DNA from: Microscillaceae bacterium
GTDB taxonomy: Bacteria > Bacteroidota > Bacteroidia > Cytophagales > Microscillaceae
Reading direction: 5' to 3'
Assembly (NCBI GenBank): GCA_012031215.1
Contig: JAAUUB010000018.1
Span: 1 to 34,448 of the forward strand
DNA: 34,448 bases
Shown here: positions 9,344-33,862 of the stretch, piece after piece
Layout: each line of letters begins with the position of its first letter
How positions within the stretch are numbered: position 1 is the first letter of the stretch
Program-made: the position numbers and the translations under genes
The notes under the pieces: model-generated
Databases searched by the model: none
What the model saw: only the letters and a program-made list of their open reading frames with translations
Told to the model about the DNA's origin: nothing

Positions 9344-9519
9344 CGATTGCAGGACGGTATTTTTTTGGAAAATCTGGCCCTTGCTCCGTAATTAGCATTT
9401 ATTTTGGGCCAATTGACAATTATTTAGGAGGCTTGTCCACCTTTGTTGCAAAGCAGCCAATGCCACAGGTGAAGGCGGTGCCCTTTATACTAAGATGTTT
9501 TTTTTGCATAAAAAGAAGT

Positions 9520-10265
9520 ATGAGTTCCGAGTTATTTTTGCTGAGTTTTTTGCTCTTCATGGCCATTGCCGGGCTTTACTCCACTGTGGGACACGCCGGA
9601 GCCTCGGGTTACCTGGCCCTGATGGGTTTATTATCTTTTGCCCCAGCTACTATCAAACCCACATCTCTTAGCCTAAATATTGCCGTGGCATTGCTGGCGT
9701 CGGTACGATTCATCCGGGCAGGTTATTTTGACAAAGGTTTATTTTTCACTTTTATCAGCACGGCCCTGCCGATGGCTTTTTTGGGGGGCTATTTATCAAT
9801 CCATCCTTGGTCTTTAAATATTTGGCGGGGGTATTTTTGCTGGCTTCATCCATTTTGCTGCTGGCCCGGCCTGCTTTTGCCAAGATGGCTTCCGGGGGCA
9901 AGAAAAAGGGGCATCCTATTTTGAAGATGAGCCTGGGGGCCGTTATAGGCTTTGTGTCTGGACTTATCGGGGTGGGGGGCGGAATTTTTCTTTCACCCGT
10001 GATGATAATGGCGGGCTGGACAAGCGTCAAAAATGCCTCGGGGGTTTCGGCTTTGTTCATTTTGTGCAATTCGGTGGCGGGCCTGGGCGGGCACGGGGCG
10101 GGCTTGCATAGCCTTGACCCCTACACTGGCTATTGGCTGCTGGCCGTGGGGCTGGGCGGAAGCCTGGGCACTTATCTGGGCACTTTGGGACTCGGCAATC
10201 GGGCTATTTTGCGGTTTTTGGCCACAGTATTGCTGCTGGCAGGCCTCAAGTTTATTTTCATTTAG
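9520..10265 (+). CDS. TSUP family permease (TauE/SafE), one apparent frameshift
   Basis: A polytopic inner-membrane carrier of about 249 residues, of the family that exports sulfite, sulfonates or related organic anions. The first half, MSSELFLLSFLLFMAIAGLY, carries the typical STVGHAGASGYLALMGLLS and ATIKPTSLSLNIAVA segments. The second half, from KYLAGVFLLASSILLL, repeats the fold with SGLIGVGGGIFLSPVMIMAGW and NASGVSALFILCNSVAGLGG. The halves join if one C is restored near 9805-9806. The ATG at 9520 is the best start; the longer frame from 9433 opens on a non-ATG codon. The two-fold internal symmetry matches the family. Substrate unknown. Confidence 0.82.
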
Positions 10266-11024: not shown

Positions 11025-11109
11025 AATTTCTACTTGGTTTTGTGCTATCTTGCGGGCAATCCCAGAAAGCCTTTTGTCTGGCGCAAAGGCAATTTTTCCT
11101 GCAAGTAGT

Positions 11110-13862
11110 ATGTCGCAATGGTTTGTTATCAGTATTTCGGGGGGCTATTTGCTGATTTTGTTTCTCATTGCCTATTGGGGCGAACGCCGTGCCCGGGCCA
11201 ATCAGAGCCTTATCAATAATCCCTGGGTATATACCTTGTCGCTCACGGTTTATTGCACGGCCTGGACCTATTATGGCAGTGTGGGGCGGGCGGCAACCTC
11301 GGGGCTGGATTTTTTGACTACCTATTTGGGGCCTACCTTACTGATGCCCTTTTGGTGGCTGGCGATGCGCAAAATCATTCGGATTTGCCGGGCCAAACAC
11401 CTCACAACCATTGCCGATTTTATCTCATCGCGTTATGGCAAGAGCAGCGCCCTGGCGGTGGTGGTATCTTTGGTCAGTATTTTGGCCGCTACCCCTTATA
11501 TTGCCTTGCAGCTAAAAGCCATTTCGGCCAGTTTTGTGGTCATTACGCAGTCCGGCAATTTAGAGGAGCCTTCCCTTTTTTCCGATTCGGCCTTTTACAT
11601 CATGTTGGCTCTTACCCTGTTCACGGTTTTGTTTGGCACACGCAATATTGAGACCACCGAAAGGCACGAAGGGCTGGTGGCGGCCATTGCCTTTGAGTCT
11701 TTGGTCAAGTTGGTGGCTTTTCTGGCTATCGGACTTTTTGTTACTTATTCATTATTTGGAGGCTTGGACGATATTTTTGCCCAGGCCCGTCAAGTGCCTG
11801 CTTTGCAAAAGCATTTTACTTTTCAGGAAAATAACCAGGGAAGCGAGTGGTTTTTTATGCTCTTGCTTTCGGCCCTGGCTTTTATGTTTTTGCCGCGTCA
11901 GTTTCAGGTTACGGTGATCGAAAATGTGAGTATCCGCCATCTCAACCAGGCCCTCTGGCTGTTTCCGCTCTATTTGTTTTTGATAAATTTATTTGTGATT
12001 CCGATTGCTTTTGCGGGTCTTTTGCAGTTTGGCCAGCAGGATGTGGATGCCGATACCTATGTATTGGCCTTGCCCCTATTTGCGGGCCAAGAGATTCTCG
12101 CGGTGTTTGTGTATTTGGGTGGTTTTTCGGCGGCTACCAGCATGATTATTGTTTCCACGATTGCCCTCAGTGTGATGCTGAGCAATAACCTGATTATGCC
12201 ATTGATGGTGCAGATTCCGATGCTCAAAAAAGCTACGCCAAAAACCTGGTGCGGTTCATTCTTTATATTAGGCGACTAAGCATTGTGCTGATTTTGCATC
12301 TGGCTTATGTGTATTACAAGCTATTGGCCGAAGACACGGCCCTGGTGTCTATTGGTTTGATTTCATTTGTGGGCATGGCCCAGTTTGCGCCAGCTATGCT
12401 GGGGGGCATTTATTGGAAAAGCGGCAACCGGATAGGGGCCCTGGCCGGCTTGCTGGTAGGGTTTTGCGTTTGGGCCTATACCTTGATTTTGCCTAGTGCG
12501 GCGGCGGCAGGTTTGCTGAGCGATGCCTTTGTCAGGGAAGGGCTTTGGGGGCTGACTTGGCTGCGCCCGCATGCCTTTTTGGGGCTAGACAGTCTTTCGC
12601 CCGTTTCTCAGGCTTTTTTTTGGAGTCTTTTGCTTAATACCCTTACTTATTTGTTTTGTTCTGCTTTTCTGGGTCAATCTACGGCAGAAAGGCATCAGGC
12701 CGAGGTTTTTATTGATATACATAAATATTATACTGCTTATGACAACACGGTATTGTGGAAAGGCACGGCCCATATTCGCGATTTAGAAAACCTGCTTATC
12801 AATTTTTTGGGCAAAGACCGCGCCCGCCAGGCCCTTGACCAGTTTTCCAGCATTTATGGCAAAGACTGGCAGAAAAACCCGCAGGCCGATGCCTATCTCA
12901 TTGCTTATGTAGAGCGGCTTCTATCGGGCACTATTGGCGTGGCGGCAGCCCGCACCCTCATCGTTTCGGTGGTCAAAGAAGAGGAAGAAATCAGGATTGA
13001 AGAAGTCTTTGACATCTTGCGCGAATCACAGGAGCTTATCCAGCTCAACCGAGAACTGCGCGAAAAATCGCTGGCCCTGGAGCAGGCCAGCCGGCAACTA
13101 CGCACCGCCAACGAGCAACTCCAGCAGGCCGACCTCCAGAAAAATGAGTTCATCTCCACCATTACCCACGAAATGCGTACGCCCATCACTTCTATTCGGG
13201 CTTTTTCCGAAATATTATTTGACAACGACGACCTGGACATCGAGGAAAAAAAGCATTTTCTCAGCACCATTATCAAAGAAACCAACCGCATGGAGCGCCT
13301 GATTAACCAGGTGCTGGACCTTGAGAAGTTTGAGTCCGGCCGTCATAAACTCAAAGAAGAATCCCTGGATTTGAACGAAATCATTCAAGAAGCCATCGCT
13401 TCTATAAGTCAGCTTTTGCAAGAGAGAAAAATCCAGTTGGTTCTGCATCTTTACCCTCAAGTCCCCCCGGTTTGGGGCGACCGCGACCGTATCTTGCAGG
13501 TGGTGCTCAATCTGCTTTCCAATGCCTTAAAGTTTTGCCAAGATACGATTGAAGTGCAAAGCCTTTCCTTGCCCGGCTGGGTCCAGGTACAGGTACGCGA
13601 CAATGGGCGCGGCATCAAGCCTGAATTACGAGAATTGATTTTTGAGAAATTTTACCAAGCCGAAGACCAAAACATTCGCAAGCCCAAAGGCAGTGGGCTG
13701 GGCCTGGCCATTTGCAAAAAAATCGTAGAATATCACCGGGGGCAAATCTGGGTAGAAAGCGAACCGGGGCACTTCGCCCAGTTTATTTTTGAACTCCCTG
13801 TTCAAAAAACTGAGGAAGAAACACGAGCCTGGCCCGCCCGGCCAAACGTTTCAGGAGGCTAA
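11110..13862 (+). CDS. Sodium/solute symporter-histidine kinase fusion (CbrA-like), one apparent frameshift
   Basis: About 917 residues when one A is restored to the AAAAAA run at 12226-12231, which turns the join into LKKSYAKNLVRFILYI. The first ~480 residues are an SLC5/SSF transporter domain of some 12-13 helices (SLTVYCTAWTYYGSVGRAA, LTTIADFISSRYGKS). Next comes a linker resembling the STAC domain (RLLSGTIGVAAARTLIVS), a coiled coil (RELREKSLALEQASRQL), a HisKA domain with phosphoacceptor H687 in ITHEMRTPITS, and an HATPase domain with N box NLLSNALKFC, DNGRGI and GSGLGLAI. It is a membrane sensor kinase of the CbrA type, whose transporter part senses or carries a nutrient. The response regulator gene follows after 114 bases. 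Confidence 0.88.
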
Positions 13863-16413: not shown

Positions 16414-17127
16414 ATGATGAATACTCAAATCAAGGCAGTTCCCTGTCAAGCTTGCGAGGTGCGGGGGAAATGTATTTTCTCTGACCTGGAGATGTGCTAC
16501 CTCGAGGAAGTATCGGAAGCCAAAAACTTCAATCACTACAAGAAAGGCAGTGTCATTTTTCACGAAAACAATTATCCCTTGGGCTTATATGGCGTTTTTC
16601 AGGGAAAAGTGAAGATGTATAAAACGGCCGAAACGGGCAAGGAACACATCATCCGCTTGGCCAAAGAGGGAGATGTGCTGGGCTACCGCTCGCTGATTTC
16701 GGGCGAAAAATACGAAGTTTCGGCTATGGCCTTAGAGGACTGCCACGTTTGCTTTGTGCCTAAGAATATTTTTATGGAAACCCTGCGCAAAAGCCATAAC
16801 CTAACCGAAAAGGTGATGGAATTGCTCACGAGCGATTTGCGATTGGCCGAAGAAAAAATTACCGACCTGGCCCAAAAAACCGTCAAAGAGAGGGTTGCCG
16901 AAACAATCCTGATGCTAAAACAATTCTATGGCTTGGAAAAAGACGGCAAAACCATCAATGTAACGCTCTCGCGGGAAGACCTGGCCAACCTGGTAGGCAC
17001 TGCTACCGAAACGCTCATCCGCTCACTCTCTGAATTTAAGAAAAATGAAGTCATTGACCTCAAAGGCAAAAAGATTTTGATTCTTAATTTTAAACTCTTA
17101 GAAAGAATTGCCAATAATTTTGATTGA
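16414..17127 (+). CDS. FNR-like transcription regulator with complete iron-sulfur cysteine set
   Basis: A 237-residue Crp/Fnr family regulator: N-terminal cysteine segment, cyclic-nucleotide-type beta roll (~30-125), dimer helix (~128-165) and winged helix (~170-237). Numbered from the ATG at 16414, cysteines lie at 11, 14, 20 and 113. In E. coli FNR the [4Fe-4S] ligands are 20, 23, 29 and 122: every one at the same offset of nine. C113 also sits in the equivalent motif (HVCFVP versus VCEIP). An oxygen- or NO-sensitive cluster is therefore likely. Extra cysteines are C28 and C110. The recognition helix TETLIRSL keeps the DNA-reading Glu (E199) and Arg (R203), but the FNR-specific Ser is Ile202. 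It ends at a strong terminator and is probably transcribed alone. Confidence 0.88.
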   Translation: MMNTQIKAVPCQACEVRGKCIFSDLEMCYLEEVSEAKNFNHYKKGSVIFHENNYPLGLYGVFQGKVKMYKTAETGKEHIIRLAKEGDVLGYRSLISGEKYEVSAMALEDCHVCFVPKNIFMETLRKSHNLTEKVMELLTSDLRLAEEKITDLAQKTVKERVAETILMLKQFYGLEKDGKTINVTLSREDLANLVGTATETLIRSLSEFKKNEVIDLKGKKILILNFKLLERIANNFD

Positions 17128-17182: not shown

Positions 17183-17217
17183 AAAACCACCGTTGAAAAC
17201 CCCTTCGGTGGTTTTTT
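17183..17217 (+). terminator. Rho-independent terminator after the FNR-like gene
   Basis: AAAACCACCG (17183-17192) pairs perfectly with CGGTGGTTTT (17206-17215) around a 13-base loop, with the T run extending to 17217. It lies 55 bases after the stop codon and separates the two Crp/Fnr genes. Confidence 0.85.
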
Positions 17218-17283: not shown

Positions 17284-17339
17284 TGATGAATATCATTTTA
17301 TACTTAGGCGACAATTTATATCTTTGATGCGTTATCAAA
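17284..17339 (+). promoter_or_regulatory. Two FNR-type boxes and -7 element in the promoter of the second Crp/Fnr gene
   Basis: Box 1 is TGAT-GAAT-ATCA (17284-17295), eight of ten positions of the FNR consensus TTGAT-N4-ATCAA. Box 2 is TTTGAT-GCGTT-ATCAAA (17323-17339), with perfect six-base arms but a spacer of five. A perfect -7 element TATCTTTG (17319-17326) overlaps box 2, and no -33 TTTG is seen at the right distance. The two centres are ~41.5 bases apart. If transcription starts near 17331, box 1 is centred at about -41.5, the typical place for an FNR/CRP activator. Confidence 0.5.
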
Positions 17340-17373: not shown

Positions 17374-18006
17374 ATGAAAACCGCACTGGAAAATCTATTG
17401 AGTACCCAAAGAGAAGAAATTACCCTGGCCCCTCGGGATTTTTTGTATCAGGAAGGCCAAGCCGCCCGGTACATCTACTGCCTTGAAGAAGGAACGGTAT
17501 TTATTTTTAAAAAAAATACCCGGGGACAAAATCTGTGGCTCAATTTCTCCCAACCCGGCCAGATCTTGGGCCTAATTGCGCTCAAAAAAACAAATTATGG
17601 CCATTCGGCCCAGGCCCTTTCCCCAGTGAAAGTCCTACGCCTGGAAGTGGCCAAAATCCGTGATTTGCTACACCAGGACATGCAGTTCCGACTTCAAATT
17701 ATGACGGAGCTTTCCCGCCAGATTAGCCTGAATGAAGACAAAGGCATCAGCCTGCATAACAAAACCCTGCGTCAGCGAATTGCGCGGATGTTTTTAGAAC
17801 TCATTCGCTCGCTCGAGTTGCCAGAATACACCGAAAATCCTACTTTACCCATTTGTTGCCCTTTTCACGAACTGGCCGACTTTTTGGGCGCTTCTCCTCA
17901 AAAAGTAGATAAAACCCTTGAAGATCTTGTGAATGAAGGCATTATCCGCAAAGATGAGGACCGCATCCGGGTGCTGAACCGCCGGGCCATTGAAGCCCTG
18001 GCCTAA
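17374..18006 (+). CDS. Crp/Fnr family transcription regulator without cysteine cluster
   Basis: A 210-residue regulator: beta roll ~15-100 (DFLYQEGQAARYIYCLEEGT, then GQILGLIAL), dimer helix ~105-135, and a C-terminal winged helix ~140-210 (CPFHELADFLGASPQKVDKTL). It has no N-terminal cysteine motif, so it is not an FNR-type iron-sulfur sensor. The residues that bind cAMP in CRP are not evident. In the recognition helix the usual Glu/Arg pair is replaced (Q and K in PQKVDK), so it should read another DNA site than the upstream FNR-like protein. Its promoter has FNR-type boxes, suggesting it is a second tier of an oxygen- or NO-responsive cascade. Ligand unknown. Confidence 0.85.
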   Translation: MKTALENLLSTQREEITLAPRDFLYQEGQAARYIYCLEEGTVFIFKKNTRGQNLWLNFSQPGQILGLIALKKTNYGHSAQALSPVKVLRLEVAKIRDLLHQDMQFRLQIMTELSRQISLNEDKGISLHNKTLRQRIARMFLELIRSLELPEYTENPTLPICCPFHELADFLGASPQKVDKTLEDLVNEGIIRKDEDRIRVLNRRAIEALA

Positions 18007-20363: not shown

Positions 20364-23300
20364 ATGGCTCTATTTTCTACCCTTCTCACACATTTTCGTT
20401 TTGCATTATTGATTTTTGGGCTGCTGCTGGAAATACAAAGCAGTCTCCTGGCCCAAAGCCCAGTCAGTTTTTTCAAAAGCCAGGTTACTGGCACAAGCCT
20501 TAGCAAACCCAGTTCCCTCCAATTTGGTCCGGATGGACGCTTGTATGTTTCGCAGGTGAATGGCCTCATCCGGGCTTTTACGCTGGCACGAACCGGGCCG
20601 GGGCAATATGCCGTCACGGCTACCGAAACCATTGATTTAGTGCAAAAAATTCCCAACTACAATGACGACGGCACTTTTAACCCCAATGTAAAAACCCGCC
20701 AGGTCTTGGGAATACTTGTAAAGGGTACACCCACGGCCCCGGTTTTATATGTCAGCTCAAACGACCCCCGCACCGGAGGAGGCAATGGCGACCTTAACCT
20801 GGATACCAATTCGGGTATCATCTCCAAGCTTTTTAAAAATGCCAATGGCAACTGGGAAAAATAGACCTGATTCGGGGTCTTCCCAAATCAGAACATAACC
20901 ACGCCACCAACGGCCTGCAATTGGACGAAACGAGCAACACGCTTTACATTGCTCAGGGCGGCCATGCCAACAAAGGGGCCCTTCGCACGAGCTGGCCTGG
21001 CTGCCCGAATTTGCCTACTCGGCGGCCATTCTCGAGGCTGATTTAGACTATATTGAGGCCCTTCCTACCCAGGGCACGGGCAATAATCAATACAAATATG
21101 ACCTGCCCACCCTGACGGGAACCGGTCCTTTTGGAGGGGATGATGGCAACAACCAGGCGATCTGGTGCCCGGCGGCCCGGTGCAGGTCTATGCCCCTGGT
21201 TTTCGTAATGCCTATGACCTGGTGCTGAGTGAAGCGGGTAAACTTTATACCTGGGACAATTCTTCCAATGCTAACTGGGGGGTGCCTCCCATAGGTCGCC
21301 TGGCCGACAGCCTGGCCACGAATATCTCAGAAATTGATTTTGATAACAATGTGGACAATGTGCAGGCCACCCACTACAAAATCAATGACAACCTCACGTA
21401 TTTTGACCCTTTTCACTACATCTCGCACCGGGGCTATTATGCGGGCAATTCCAACCCTACCCGGGCCAATCCGGCCATTAACCGATTTAACGGCCTTTCT
21501 CCGGTGCCCGAGGGCTTTGACTTTGGCTTTTGGCACGGAACCAATACCAAAGATGGCCTGGAAAACCGCTTTTTCCATTCTGGTCGGGCGGGCCTGCCCA
21601 AACAAAACCAAAGCCTTTTTGGGGTGATGGGCTCTACCAATGGCATTTGTGAATACCGCGCGTCCAATTTTAACCAGTCCATGAAAGGAAATATCCTGGG
21701 GGCTTCTTTCAACGGCATTTTGTATCGGGTGGTGCTCAATGCCCAAGGAACTGACATTGACCACAGTTTTCCACATAATGGCTCCGGCATCAACGGCGTG
21801 ATTCACCTGGCCGAAGGCTTTGGCAATTGGAATATTCTCGATGTAACGGCCCAGCCAGATGAGGCCATTTTTCCGGGAACCATCTGGATAGCCGAATACT
21901 CCAGCAATAAAATCACGGTGTTGGAGCCCGATGACTTTAGTGAATGCGCCCAGAATAACCCGGCGATGGCACCTGGCCTGGATTTCGACAATGATGGCTT
22001 TAGCAACCAGGACGAAATAGACAATGGCACCGACCCCTGCTCCGCGGCCAGCAGCCCCGAAGACTGGGACGGCGACCTGATATCGGATTTAAACGATAGC
22101 GATGACGATAACGATGGCCTGGCCGATGTAGTGGACGCTTTTGCCCTGGACCCGGCCAATGGTACGGATACTTTTCTACCCATTCGCTACGAATGGGAGG
22201 CCAGTGGCAGCGAACTGGCCGGCTATATCCTCAATTCCGGTTTTTCGGGACTGATGGTGAATGGAAGCAGCAATTACAAAAATCTGTATGACATTGACGA
22301 ACTAACGGTCATTGGGACAGGGGGGCTCTTCACGATTGACAACAGCACCAATGGCTCCGCCCTGGGCTTGGCCAATAACCAGGCCTATGGCTTTCAGTTC
22401 GGCTTAAATGTAGGGGCATTCCCGGGCGATTATCGCTTTCATACGGTAGTGGCCCAGCCTTTTGCCGGCGAAGACCCGGCCCTGCTCAGCGACCAAAATA
22501 TGGGAATTCATCTGGGCAAGGGCAACCAAAGCAATTATCTGAAAATGGTGGTGGATGCCAACAATGGTGCGGGCGGTATTCGCATCTTGTGGGAAGAAAA
22601 TGATATAGTACAACACAATGAATTGTATCCGGTGAATATTTTGGGTACACAGGAAGTCCATCTATACCTGAGTGTAAACCGACAAACCTTAGAAATCCAG
22701 CCTGCTTATTCCCTGGAGAATGGGCCCATGATGCCTTTGGGAGCCCCGCTGACGGTGCCCACCGATTGGCTGGAAGGCGTGGTGGCTACGGGCATCCTGG
22801 CCTCTGCCGAAACCGGAAGCCCAATGGGGGCTACCTGGGGATTTTTCCGGGTCTTGCCCGTACCCTCTACCGCACAGGCCCACATTCGCATTCAAACCGG
22901 CGATGACCTGAACACCGACACCCGTACCGCTCGGTCATTTATCATTGAAAATACGGCCCCAGACGGTCAATACATTAGCCAGGTAGTTCTGGATTTAAGC
23001 ACGGCTTTGCTGCCCGATTTGGTCTTTGACCCCGCCAATGCCATTGCAGACCAAAACCCGGCCTTGCCTTTTACCGCACAGGAGGGCGAAGCCGCAACGG
23101 GATTGGCCCAGGTTAGCTTTGCCCAGTCGCCCTCGGGCGATGTCAGCAATGGCTATCGCCAATTAATCCTGGATTTTACAGATTTTGCGCCGGGCGAGCG
23201 CCTGGAATTTTCCATTGACACAGACCCGCTTTCCCTGAAAGGAAGCAGTCCTGAAAACCCAATTGGCCAAATGGCGGGTCTGGAACTTATTGGTACACAG

Positions 23301-26300
23301 GCCATTGTGAAGTTTAACGATGGCGCTGGCTTCCTTGCCCCTTTGTACCGTGTCCCAGCCGAAGAAGCCCAAATCCAAAATATTTTGAAGCAAGAGGCCC
23401 CCGCAGCCCTGCAACTTAGGGCCCTGGATGAAGTACAAACGCCAGTTGCCACCACTCACCCGGTGCAAACCATTCGCCTGGAAGGCCGCCCGGGGGCGGA
23501 AGTACAACTGCTGGTTTTGGAAAGCGGACTTTTTGTTCAAGGTGTGCCTAACAATGGGTTTGAGGTACAGCCTTTTGAGACCAATCGGGTGCTGCAAATA
23601 GTCAGTGAGCAAAGTCTGGTGCTTTCCGTAAATGGCACTGCCGAGGTCGATATTCAGTTGACGCGTACGGAATTGCCCGAGGGTGAAACAGGCTTTCACC
23701 AGGTGGTAGCCGTAGAAAAAGAAACGGACGGGCGCACCGGTGCCTTTTCCAATGTCTTGCAATTTCATTTGTTGCCCGCCCCCCCCACTGCCAGCTTTCG
23801 GATAAACTCCGGGGGGCTGGCTTATACCACTACGGAAGGGGCCGCATTTGAAGCCGATAATTATTTTGGCACGCCCTCCAGTGTTTATAACCCGGCTACG
23901 GGACTCAGCATTGCGGGCACCGAGGAAGATGTGCTTTATAACAGTGAGCGATACGGGCACAATTTTGCCTATAATTTTCCGGTGGACAATGGCAATTATC
24001 AGGTCGTCCTGCACTTTGCCGAAGTCTATTTTGGGGTTGCCGGGCGCGGTGGCACCAATACCGGGCTGGGCAGCCGGGTATTTAATGTGAGCCTGGAAGG
24101 TCAAACGGTGTTGAGCAATTTTGACATTTTTGCCGAGGCCGGGGGCGCTGCCATTGCCCTGCGCAAAAGCTTTTATGTGAATGTAAATGATGGCAACCTG
24201 AATGTTCAGTTTAACCGCATCACCGACAATGCCAAAGTCAGCGCCATCGAAATCATTCCGGCCGGAACCAATACACCACCAATACTGGAAAACCCCCTAG
24301 CCGACCGTACGTATCCCTACGACCCCAATCTCGAGAATCCATTCAGTTTTGTTGTACCATCCAATACATTTTCCGACTTACAGGACCCAAGCCTAGCCTA
24401 TATCGCCACACAGGCCAATGGCCAGCCCCTGCCCAGTTGGTTAAGCTTTGACCCGGCCACGGCCACCTTTTCCGGCTTTGCTTCTCAGTATCAGGTAAAT
24501 CCCAATTTTGTGGATATTCAGGTAAATGCGCTCGATAGCCAGGGATTGAGTGCCAGCGATGTGTTTCGTATCACTTTTCTGGATCCTTACGATTATTACG
24601 CAGTTCGGCTCAATGCAGGCAAAACCACCGGCCCCAATGTAGTGGCCCAGAATGGGTATGTGTTTGCCAATGATGCTTATGTAACGGGAGGAACCATCTT
24701 CCATACCCCTGATTTGCAAATTGCTCACACCGAGGATGATGTGCTATACCAATCCGAACGCTTTGGCAATATGACCTACAATGTTCCGGTAGAGAACGGA
24801 GCGTATCGGGTTATTCTCCATTTTTCGGAAAATTATTTTGGGCTAAGTGCCGCCGGAGGTATTGGCAGCCGGGTGTTCCACGTGGACCTGGAAGGCCAGC
24901 GAAGGCTGAGCAATTATGACATCTTTGCCCGGGCCGGAGGCAGTGCCCGGGCCATTCGGGAAGCGCTGTTCGTGAATGTGAGCGACGGTTTGCTGAGCAT
25001 TCAGTTTAGCAATGTGAACAACAATGCCCAAATAGCGGCCATTGAAATTTTGCCCTTTGTCCCTACGCTCGAGGAAAGCCCTTTTTCTGCCCCTGCTTTA
25101 ATTGGTGCCAACCAAAGACCCGTTTTAAAACTTAATATCCCGGATACGGGTGCGCAAAGCATTTCTGCCCTACAATTCTCTACCGAAGGTACTAGCCAAA
25201 CCAGTGATATTGTGAGGGCACGCCTGCTTTTTTCCGGTGGTCAAAACAGCCTCCATCAGGCGGTTGAGCTGGCTGCGCTGGAACAACCCAATGGAGCCTT
25301 TACCCTGCAGGGCTTAGCCAGGCCCTGGCCCAAGGAGATAACTTTTTCTGGCTGGTGTACGACCTGTTTCCACAGGCCAGTCCGGGCGGGCAGGTGGATG
25401 CCCATGTGCTGGGAGCTACCAGCAGCAGTGGCACACTCAGCCCCGAATCTTTTCACGTTGGCCAAAGAGGGCGACCACTGGCGCAGCCCGAAGCAGCCCC
25501 GGGCCAGTTGCTGAGCCTCGATGGCAATAATGATTACCTGATTGTGCCGGAGGAAACCCGCTTTGATTTCACCAACCAGCTCACCGTAGAAGCCTGGATA
25601 AAAGTTTCGGTTTTTGACCGTCAATGGCAATCCATTATCACCAAAGGAAATGATGGCTGGCGTTTGCGCCGAAACAACAATACCAACAAAATCAATTTTG
25701 GACTGACAAGTAGCACTGGCAGCAACCACCAGGTCATCAGCCAAAGCGATTTGAATGATGGCGAATGGCATCACGTGGCCGGGGTCTATACCGGAAGTAA
25801 ATTGCAACTGTATGTAGATGGGGTGAAAGAAGGGGAAATCAATCTCAGCATTACCTTGCGCAATAATGACCACGCTGTGATGATTGGAGGCAATGCCCAA
25901 AACACCAGCCGTAATTTTGAAGGGCAAATGGACGAGGTGCGCATCTGGAACCAGGCCCGCAGCGAGGCCCAAATCCGGGAAAGTATGCACCTGATTGCCT
26001 CTGGCCACGAAACGGGGCTGGTAAGCTACTGGCAGCTCCGCCAAACCGAAGGAAATATGGCTTATGACTGGGTTCATGACTTACACGCAAGCTTTAGCCC
26101 CGGCATGAGCAGTGCCAACTGGGCAATCGCTACCGAACCTGTGGGTGGCGGACAATCCCTTAGCCGCCTGGCTTCCAGCCTTAGCACCGTAGATTTTGAC
26201 GGAGTGGGCCTGCAAATCCAAACCGGCGAAATCGCCCCCGACGGAATACTGGTAGTAAGCCGCCTGGAAAATATTAGCCCGGCCCTGGTGGACCCCGCCC

Positions 26301-27139
26301 CGGCGAACACTAAATTTTCCGATTATTTTATCATCCATAATTTTGGCAATACCACTGGTCTAAGCCCTATGCGCCTGCGGTTTTACCTCCCGGCGCAGTT
26401 TTTGCTCAATGCGGAGCCAAGCACTTATCAACTCCACAAACGCGCTTCTAATGCCGATGATGAAGCCTGGACAAGTTTTCCGGCCAGTGTAGTGAATCAA
26501 ACCGAAAACTATGTGGAATTTACGGGCATTACCGGATTCAGCCAGGTGCTCATCAGCAGCAGTGGTGCCACGCTGCCCGTAAGGCTGCTTTCTTTTGAAG
26601 GCCAAAGGGTGAATGCAAGCGAAGTACAGTTGCACTGGAGTACGGCTTCGGAGGAAAACAATTTGGGCTTTGAGATTGAAAAAAGCCTGGATGCCCAGGC
26701 CTTTTATCCCATTGGATTTGTGGAAGGAGCGGGCAATAGTATGCGCCTGCTGCAATATACCTACCGCGATTTTTCGGCTTCCGAAGCGGCCTACTACCGC
26801 CTTAAGCAAAAAGATACAGATGGTACACACACTTACAGCCCGGTAGTGTTTGTGGCAGCCAGTCTGGAAGACTTCGTGCGGGCTATTCCTAACCCCGTTC
26901 AGACAAATCATCTGGATAGCTGGCACTTGCAGGCAGGGGCCTTTTGGGAAAATCAAGATTTTATCCAGGCCCAGCTTATCGAGGCGGAGGGGCAAATAAT
27001 CGCCCAATGCCAAGGCAATATCCTCCAGGTAGAAAGTCAGACCCGTCAACAATTGCGACAATTATCGCCGGGTCTCTACCTCTTGAGATTGCAAAGCTCC
27101 GAGGGTCGGGTGTTAGTTGTAAAACTGGTGCGTGAATAA
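20364..27139 (+). CDS. Very large type IX secreted multidomain protein, four apparent frameshifts
   Basis: One gene of about 2,260 codons. It joins across a lost A at 20857-20861, a lost base in GGGGCCC at 20975-20981, one near 21158-21164, and a lost C at 25318-25319. Order: signal peptide (ends SSLLAQS); beta-propeller like sorbosone/PQQ sugar dehydrogenases (SSLQFGPDGRLYVSQVNGL, SEHNHATNGLQLDE, APGFRNAYDLV) to ~21940; calcium-binding thrombospondin-3-like repeats (DFDNDGFSNQDEIDNGTDP, DSDDDNDGLADVVDAF) at ~21980-22150; long beta-rich region; malectin domain 1 (~23795-24270); cadherin/He-PIG-like domain (~24275-24590); malectin domain 2 (~24597-25065); LamG (~25505-26000); beta domains; C-terminal sorting domain (~26882-27136, starting AIPNPVQ, with LSPGLYLLRLQS). 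Expected on the cell surface or secreted, binding or processing polysaccharide. No second gene is linked to it. Confidence 0.85.
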
Positions 27140-32309: not shown

Positions 32310-33862
32310 ATGACGGTTGAAATAAAAATCCCGGACGTGGCCGAATCCATCACCGAGGTAACCATCGCCACCTGGCTCAAGCAAACGGGCGATTACGTCG
32401 CCCTCGACGAAGCCCTTTGCGAAGTAGAAACCGACAAAGCCACCCAAGAACTCTTTGCCGAGGCTGCGGGCATCCTCGAAATCCTGGTAGAAGCGGGCGA
32501 AACCGTAGATGTAGGGGCCGTGATTGCCCGCATCAGTACCAATGGGGCCAGTGCTACGCCTTTATCCGCCCCGGCCATGGAAGCCATTCCTGCTCCTTCG
32601 GAAATGGCCAGCCAACCCGAAAGCAACGGCCCTGCCGAAATCATAGAAATGCGCGTGGAGCCATTTGCCGAATCCATCACTGAGGTCGTGATTGGCACCT
32701 GGCTCAAAGCCGAAGGCGATTTTGTGGAAATGGACGAAGGCCTTTGCGAGGTGGAAACGGACAAAGCTACCCAGGAACTGCCCGCCACGGCCAGTGGTAT
32801 TTTGCACATCGTTGCCACCGAAGGCAGCACCCTGAAAATAGGCGACCTCATCTGCAAAATTGAAAAAGCCCAAAGCGGCGCAAAAACCACTACCCCCAGC
32901 CCTTCTCCCAGTTCCTCCGCCACAAACGCCACGCCGACAAGCACCGAAACCAGCTACGCCACCGGAACGCCTTCTCCCGCTGCCGCCAAAATACTGACCG
33001 AAAAAGGCATTGACCCGACCTCGGTCAAAGGCACGGGGGTAGAAGGCCGCATCACCAAAGAAGATGCCCTCAAAGCCGAAAAACCTGCCCCCACCCCGCC
33101 CCCCTCCAGCGTCACTCCGGCAAAAACGCCCGAAAGCCCCAAAACCCCAGCCCCCGCCGGCGAGCGCACCCAGACCCGCAAGCGCATGAGCCAATTGCGC
33201 AAGACTATTGCCCGCCGCCTCGTGGCCGTAAAAAACGAAACGGCGATGCTCACTACCTTCAATGAGGCCAATATGCAGCCCATTATGGACCTGCGGAACA
33301 AATACAAGGAGGCTTTCAAAGAAAAACACAAGGTAGGACTGGGCTTTATGTCTTTTTTTGCCAAAGCCTGCGCCCAGGCCCTGATGGAAATTCCGGAGGT
33401 GAACGCCCAGATTGACGAAAACGAAGTCGTATATCACAATTATGTCGACCTGTCGGTGGCCGTTTCTACCGAAAGGGGGCTGGTAGTGCCCGTGCTACGC
33501 AATGTAGAAAAATGAGCTTTGCCGAGATAGAACAGGGCATCGTGGACCTGGCTGTAAAAGCCCGCGATGGCAAGCTGGCTATCGAGGATATGCAGGGGGG
33601 CACCTTTACCATCACCAATGGCGGTATCTTTGGCTCTATGATGTCCACCCCGATTATCAATGCGCCCCAGTCGGCCATCCTGGGGATGCACAATATTATC
33701 CAACGCCCTATGGCTGTCAATGGTGAGGTCAAAATTCTGCCGATGATGTACCTGGCCCTTTCCTACGACCACCGCATCATTGATGGCAAGGAAGCCGTGA
33801 CCTTTCTCGTTGCAGTCAAGAAATACCTTGAGGAGCCCGAAAGGCTGCTGTTTGGGGTGTAA
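32310..33862 (+). CDS. odhB: Dihydrolipoamide succinyltransferase (E2 of 2-oxoglutarate dehydrogenase), two lipoyl domains, one apparent frameshift
   Basis: E2 moves the succinyl group from E1 to CoA. About 517 residues when one A is restored to AAAAA at 33508-33512, giving [14 protein letters not shown]. Two lipoyl domains are present: 1-77 with lipoyl K43 and 112-187 with K152, both in the identical context [12 protein letters not shown]. Then a linker rich in Pro/Ala/Thr, the E3/E1-binding domain ([20 protein letters not shown], ending GRITKEDAL), a second linker, and the catalytic domain with [13 protein letters not shown] holding the His and Asp of the active site. OdhB usually has one lipoyl domain, so the second is unusual. 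The gene lies directly after sucA. A strong terminator follows at 33896. Confidence 0.92.

Follow-up and report, generated by a model that had tools for sequence, protein, structure and literature searches.

Two adjacent genes of the Crp/Fnr family lie on the + strand of the 34,448-nt stretch of Microscillaceae DNA that was analysed (hereafter the window). The first (16417..17127) codes for a regulator of 236 amino acids that is FNR-like by Pfam and by its alignment to solved FNR structures, and which we propose as an activator. The second (17374..18006, + strand) codes for a Crp/Fnr-family regulator of 210 amino acids (Pfam cNMP_binding, 6.5e-15; HTH_Crp_2, 3.1e-11), here called crp2 and proposed as the target of the first. 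An intrinsic-terminator-like hairpin with a T run (17189..17212, + strand) lies between both genes; the consensus scan returned this one hairpin against a mean of 0.1 in shuffled sequences, and the segment 17180-17222 folds at −14.3 kcal/mol (z −3.55). Because the hairpin splits the FNR-like gene from crp2, it fits with crp2 having a separate promoter of its own.

The crp2 promoter, read on the + strand, contains box 1, TGATGAATATCA (17284..17295, centre 17289.5), an FNR-type site of the form TGAT-GAAT-ATCA that is backed by its conservation and by a spacing preference. A gap of exactly 23 nt (17296..17318), the length of which is constant in relatives, separates it from TATCTTTG (17319..17326), an exact match to the −7 element TAnnTTTG of the Bacteroidetes primary sigma factor. 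Box 2, TTTGATGCGTTATCAAA (17323..17339, without assigned strand), overlaps this element and is a perfect 6-bp inverted repeat with a 5-nt spacer, TTTGAT-GCGTT-ATCAAA, of unproven function. Re-reading the sequence confirmed the coordinates and letters that the original prediction had given for both boxes and for the −7 element. Activators of the CRP and FNR type occupy the class II position when centred at −41.5. In Flavobacterium psychrophilum, passages of one study place the sigma-A box TAnnTTTG at −12 to −5 (PMC9723704). With the same placement, the predicted transcription start (+1) falls at 17331 on the + strand, 43 nt upstream of the ATG, box 1 extends from −47 to −36 with a predicted centre at −41.5, as had been claimed, and box 2 is centred exactly on the predicted +1. 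The 23 nt that separate box 1 from the −7 element contain no TTG in the window promoter, and a clear −33 element is therefore absent from it, in line with the earlier claim. A TTG does occur in the −33 zone at 14 of 53 and 8 of 64 sites in two sets of loci, so this element is not absent everywhere; at crp2, we infer that box 1 replaces the −33 contact.

Elsewhere in the window (9433-10265, 11050-13862, 21165-27139 and 32310-33862), adjacent ORFs lie in different reading frames, overlap one another and look by eye like parts of one protein, for example a dihydrolipoyl transferase at 32310/33512, which suggests assembly indel errors or broken genes.

Conservation of the crp2 promoter

The crp2 protein was searched against 57 genomes of the order, and the 30 loci returned were sorted by reading into nine short Crp-like (crp2-type) genes, nine FNR-like genes including that of locus L023, and twelve response-regulator fusions. 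The promoter comparison covered L023 and the nine crp2-type loci, namely L001 (the window), L002, L003, L004, L005, L008, L015, L018 and L019. All nine crp2-type promoters have TGAY-N4-RTCA at a distance of exactly 23 nt upstream of the −7 element, which reads TAnnTTTG in seven of them and TAnnTTTA in two (L018 and L019). The original prediction stood or fell with the presence of its boxes in relatives, and box 1 is kept at the same distance throughout this set; we regard it, from this comparison, as a real conserved element at the predicted class II position. The eight crp2-type relatives are only 23-34% identical to the crp2 protein, the orthology of the weaker ones being unsure, and the gene order FNR-like then crp2 is retained in L003, L004, L005 and L008. 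Judging by protein identity, crp2 is less conserved and changes faster than its neighbour: it shares 34, 29 and 26% identity with its best homologues in genomes G006, G003 and G009, against 74, 71 and 70% for the FNR-like protein.

Spacing preference and association with the FNR-like gene

We compared 30 spacings of the pattern TGAYN4RTCA-N9 to N38-TAnnTTTG. In the genome to which the window belongs (its own genome, G000), 7 of 15 matches fall at spacing 23, where 0.5 would be expected under equal spacings (binomial 2.3e-7). Within a family sample of 15 genomes, presence of the FNR-like gene being scored as a protein match at E<=1e-20, spacing 23 accounts for 59 of 257 matches in the ten genomes with the gene and for 1 of 75 in the five without it (Fisher 1.6e-6, with versus without), counts that pool related genomes of differing size and are inflated by repeats in G012. 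Summed over the rows for the 57 genomes of the order, the 42 that have an FNR-like match hold 145 sites and the 15 that lack one hold 5 (one each in G014, G033 and G048, two in G015), with the proviso that outside the family response-regulator fusions are among the 1e-20 matches. In a phylum sample, 60 of 148 genomes hold sites; added up, the rows give 248 sites, compared with 11 for the reversed pattern, which is an imperfect control; since the reversed-pattern counts are not zero, some of the sites are chance matches. The site is thus held at a constant distance from the core promoter, as at class II promoters, the value of −41.5 itself being predicted.

Four genomes of genera g8 and g9 (G007, G008, G013 and G014) have no FNR-like match at 1e-20 and contain 0, 0, 0 and 1 sites, and the regulon may have been lost or replaced in them. 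In the window's own genome, the 16-mer TTGATGGCCGTATCAA is found on either strand at G000:C51:12042, C150:20414 and C231:10724 and is possibly part of a repeat.

A profile search of genome contigs with the FNR-like alignment returned 80 loci, mostly from closely related Flavobacterium, and at least one composite site is present around the FNR-like gene in 63 of them and none in 17. The bases outside the core TGAY-N4-RTCA are A...T at 60 of 64 sites in these contig-search loci, again mostly related Flavobacterium, and at 14 of 53 sites in the remaining loci.

The form of the site was itself a point of choice. The canonical TTGATN4ATCAA was considered as the site; its 13 exact occurrences in the own genome show no excess over spacers 3 and 6, and 50 listed of 66 own-genome sites divide into 21 with N3, 10 with N4, 5 with N5 and 14 with N6. 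For want of enrichment the canonical site was dropped in favour of TGAY-N4-RTCA tied to the −7 element. Box 1 differs by two letters from the canonical form and is not among the three matches with one mismatch in the window (chance mean 1.34).

Genes downstream of the sites

Seven sites in the own genome lead into genes, namely crp2, a gene for a Usp protein (Pfam 3.7e-45) and five others. These code for HemN (its equivalog model above cut-off), a protein of cytochrome c assembly (Pfam Cytochrom_C_asm, with the CcmC model below cut-off), a membrane protein that includes a cytochrome c domain, a TerF-like fragment located at the end of a contig and a 146-aa protein without hits. Among relatives within the family, sites precede hemN in G006, G009 and G010 and, in the first two of these, the assembly operon as well (both recognised by eye); in G009 a site also precedes the gene for CcoG (equivalog above cut-off), and in G010 one precedes the gene for a heavy-metal P-type ATPase. 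Genes were listed for 45 of the 80 contig-search loci. At 22 of these 45 loci, the first ORF after the site, counting long ORFs only, starts ME(M/N/V)QQFYYDNK and lies some 200-290 nt downstream. The one ORF of this type that was tested, in L208, where it is truncated at the locus end, is subunit I of a cbb3 oxidase (COX1 4.7e-109) and scores 573 bits against the CcoN model, just under the cut-off of 583. Other gene products tested behind sites are heavy-metal P-type ATPases (L156 and L174), RIC (L161, above cut-off), Usp (L189) and cytochrome c (L158). Less expected are a CitMHS/sodium:sulfate-type transporter (L106), MlaE (L188) and a protein without Pfam hit (L108), which may be chance or real targets. 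A resemblance of the L100 product to small heat-shock proteins, seen by eye, has no Pfam or NCBIfam hit behind it, and we leave this protein unnamed. Genes such as hemN, those of the cbb3 oxidase, ccoG and those of P-type ATPases are typical low-oxygen genes of FNR/FixK regulons. A scan of related genomes for the same box before respiratory genes, as originally suggested, finds it at the same distance before hemN, ccoG and, in Flavobacterium, cbb3 oxidase genes, and we consider that crp2 very probably belongs to the same FNR-like regulon.

The FNR-like protein and its signal

The FNR-like protein contains the Pfam domains cNMP_binding (PF00027, 4.6e-21) and HTH_Crp_2 (PF13545, 2.2e-16), both above cut-off, and from residue 7 onwards it can be aligned with FNR chains of known structure (5cvr group, 5e-25). 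All four positions of the FNR cluster ligands are cysteine and in register, as C-x2-C-x5-C followed by a later VC(F/E)(V/I)P. The Fnr subfamily of NCBIfam is its best hit (2e-30), but at 105.9 bits against a curated cut-off of 228, which is why we use the term FNR-like and do not name the protein Fnr. Across nine FNR-like proteins of the family (alignment A1), C-x2-C, the later cysteine, which belongs to the beta-roll, and the recognition helix GTATETLIR are invariant. Relative to the E..SR of FNR, this helix keeps E and R and has I in place of S (ETLIR), and the outer bases of the box vary. The original prediction had placed an FNR-like activator next to crp2, and both the four cysteines in register and the way the sites track the presence of the FNR-like gene support this. 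Taken together, these comparisons make the FNR-like protein the likely binder of box 1, and we put the probability that it activates crp2 through this box at roughly 0.85. We also considered that the FNR-like gene is autoregulated through the same element and rejected it, as its 120-bp upstream region holds no composite site.

If crp2 is activated in this way, oxygen is quite probably the signal. In the N-terminal motif (window 16444-16473), the third cysteine is the variable ligand position: it follows at x5 only in L119-L121, at x6 in L126 and at x7 in L127-L128 (loci compared, L119-L142), is absent at that place in L122-L125 and others, and is lost in G003, G005, G009, G012 and beyond. Several relatives that lack it still keep the box, and a cluster would need to be bound differently there. 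This variability is one argument for a second reading, in which the adjacent FNR-like protein does bind box 1 and senses NO, redox state or a ligand instead of oxygen through a 4Fe-4S cluster. The presence of RIC, an iron-sulphur repair gene, behind the site in one relative points the same way, as does the carbon sensing that passages of a study on Flavobacteriales and Saprospiraceae predict for CRP/FNR homologues (PMC8510549). Against it stands the complete set of cysteines at the four ligand positions of the window protein. The low-oxygen character of the hemN, cbb3 oxidase, ccoG and P-type ATPase genes also argues for oxygen, and we consider a different signal unlikely.

Box 2 and the proposed feedback

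The original prediction read both boxes together as a two-step cascade with activation and feedback. The activation half is well supported by the nine conserved promoters and by the recurrence of such gene pairs described below; the feedback half does not hold in relatives, where the palindrome of box 2 is absent at the same place in all eight other crp2-type promoters, and box 2 is rejected there as a conserved operator. Its 5-nt spacer departs from the four of FNR, and its first four letters are dictated by the −7 element. No clear spacing preference is apparent either, the own genome containing 25 TTTGAT-N2-10-ATCAAA sites across nine spacings, with 2 at N5, 4 at N6 and a maximum of 6 at N9. 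We further collected, from the loci retrieved, class II sites for which the sequence downstream was available; keeping one copy per distinct 43-mer left 115. The −7 element continues as TTTGAT at 6 of these 115 sites, and TTTGAT-N3-8-ATCAA extends across it at two, crp2 (N5) and a Usp gene on contig C28 (N6), both in the own genome. The Usp promoter (G000:C28:10376-10432; L099, about 477-533) combines the class II element with TTTGAT-N6-ATCAAA across the −7 element.

These two sites speak weakly for a further reading, in which box 2 would be a genuine operator confined to the lineage of the window, on which crp2 or the FNR-like protein would sit over +1 and exert negative feedback. The perfect 6-bp arms are centred exactly on the predicted +1. 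However, the two spacers differ (5 and 6), the repeat is missing from the eight other promoters, and, although TTTGATN5ATCAAA itself appeared in 0 of 2000 shuffles of the intergenic region, 28% of them contain some perfect 6-bp inverted repeat whose spacer measures 3-7 nt. A lineage-specific operator therefore seems doubtful to us; box 2 is curious, insufficient to be called an operator, and feedback through it is unproven.

Alternative binders of box 1

Binding of box 1 by crp2 itself would make the promoter autoregulatory. The box does lie in the promoter of crp2 and is kept in nine crp2-type promoters, and in G001, a genome that is 86% complete, a crp2-type gene carries the box although no FNR-like gene was detected at 1e-20. 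However, the same element stands before further genes, among them hemN and those for Usp and cbb3 oxidase, and it occurs once in G002 and four times in G011, genomes in each of which the crp2 query found only the FNR-like gene, so crp2 is not a likely binder. The recognition helices of crp2-type proteins, compared by eye and unaligned, also differ although the box is constant, whereas the GTATETLIR of the FNR-like proteins is invariant. We consider autoregulation very unlikely and retain the FNR-like protein as the candidate activator. A chance palindrome beside a chance −7 element is hardly credible: the half sites are short, and among 2000 dinucleotide-shuffled versions of the 246-bp intergenic region 0.6% contain TGATN4ATCA alone, but the composite TGAYN4RTCA-N23-TAnnTTTG turns up in 0 of 2000 (window-wide mean 0.003, 300 shuffles) and is kept in nine of nine crp2-type promoters at constant distance.

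Second regulators at other loci

We surveyed the 80 contig-search loci for further Crp-family genes, taking ORFs that start with ATG and code for 150 aa or more. Five loci carry more than one Crp-family ORF close to the FNR-like gene, and in four of them (L151, L152, L157 and L158; not L171) the additional ORF has a class II element within 400 bp upstream. L151 and L152 correspond to G009 and G003 again, and L157 and L158 are further Bacteroidetes MAGs. In the latter two (L157 1803-3364 and L158 3995-6451), the gene after the FNR-like gene is a second Crp/Fnr gene that looks like a different Crp/Fnr subtype and likewise carries the class II element. The element before these extra ORFs supports a recurring step from FNR to a second regulator, L157 and L158 adding two further genomes. 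As for crp2 itself, it matches DNR (3dkw, 8.4e-9) only as one of 51 sequences, and no denitrification gene was recognised by eye among the window ORFs; we rejected its assignment as a DNR for lack of specific support.

Discussion

The conserved box, its fixed distance of 23 bp, the common gene set and the association with the FNR-like gene, all seen by genome comparison, lead us to propose the following mechanism. When oxygen is scarce, the FNR-like protein would carry an iron-sulphur cluster and dimerise, and the dimer would bind box 1 at −41.5. There it could contact RNA polymerase and so replace the missing −33 contact, allowing the TAnnTTTG promoter to fire and crp2 to be made. The second regulator would thereby become part of the FNR-like regulon, alongside hemN, Usp genes and those for cytochrome c assembly (joined in relatives by cbb3 oxidase genes), and might relay the signal to further targets. 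We infer the cluster, the oxygen response, the binding, the polymerase contact, the direction of regulation and the role of crp2 alike.

A broader hypothesis can be drawn from these data: across much of Bacteroidota, a rigid class II activator of the FNR type may replace the −33 element of TAnnTTTG promoters, always from 23 bp away, and so define a low-oxygen regulon; in several lineages it would drive a fast-evolving second Crp/Fnr regulator, and the lineage of the window would have gained an operator at +1 (box 2, also at the Usp gene) that closes a feedback loop. We offer this combination tentatively and think it improbable as a whole. The promoter signature is strict and searchable, so that a candidate low-oxygen regulon could be listed for a given Bacteroidota genome, and the element offers a direct test of activator action at TAnnTTTG promoters. 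In such a regulon, crp2 would represent a second layer of regulation, with rapid change from one genus to the next. No title or abstract among the matches listed in open-licence PMC papers concerned an FNR regulon of Bacteroidota, and the matches listed there included no description of the 23-nt element, which may exist elsewhere.

Several known systems resemble the one proposed here. E. coli-type FNR class II promoters have a palindromic TGAT-N4-ATCA core centred at −41.5 and serve targets such as hemN. The crp2 system shares the core, a predicted centre at −41.5, a regulator with C-x2-C-x5-C and a later cysteine, and hemN as a target. It differs in that the Bacteroidetes −7 element TAnnTTTG replaces the −10 element TATAAT, that the outer bases of the box differ from TTGAT and that the serine of ETISR is isoleucine (ETLIR). 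The −7 element is the same as in the TAnnTTTG sigma-A promoters of F. psychrophilum, in which cbb3 oxidase and haem synthesis genes are raised at low oxygen according to passages of the same study that placed this element; the names Fnr and Crp do not occur in its main text, and those passages name no activator box (PMC9723704). MalR-type regulators, as used in PMC8510549, are likewise Crp/Fnr-family proteins of Bacteroidota; passages of that study predict carbon sensing, in contrast to the FNR cysteines and the set of low-oxygen genes that go with the regulator considered here. A parallel to the proposed gene pair lies in Fnr-to-Dnr cascades, where an oxygen regulator also induces a further regulator of the Crp/Fnr family. 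The step from ANR to DNR in Pseudomonas is a comparable cascade. In Dinoroseobacter shibae, passages of one study describe induction of DnrE and DnrF, further Crp/Fnr-family regulators, by the oxygen regulator FnrL (PMC5398030). In contrast to such cascades, the two genes of the pair are neighbours here, an arrangement seen in no fewer than three genera of the family (G000, G003/G012 and G009).
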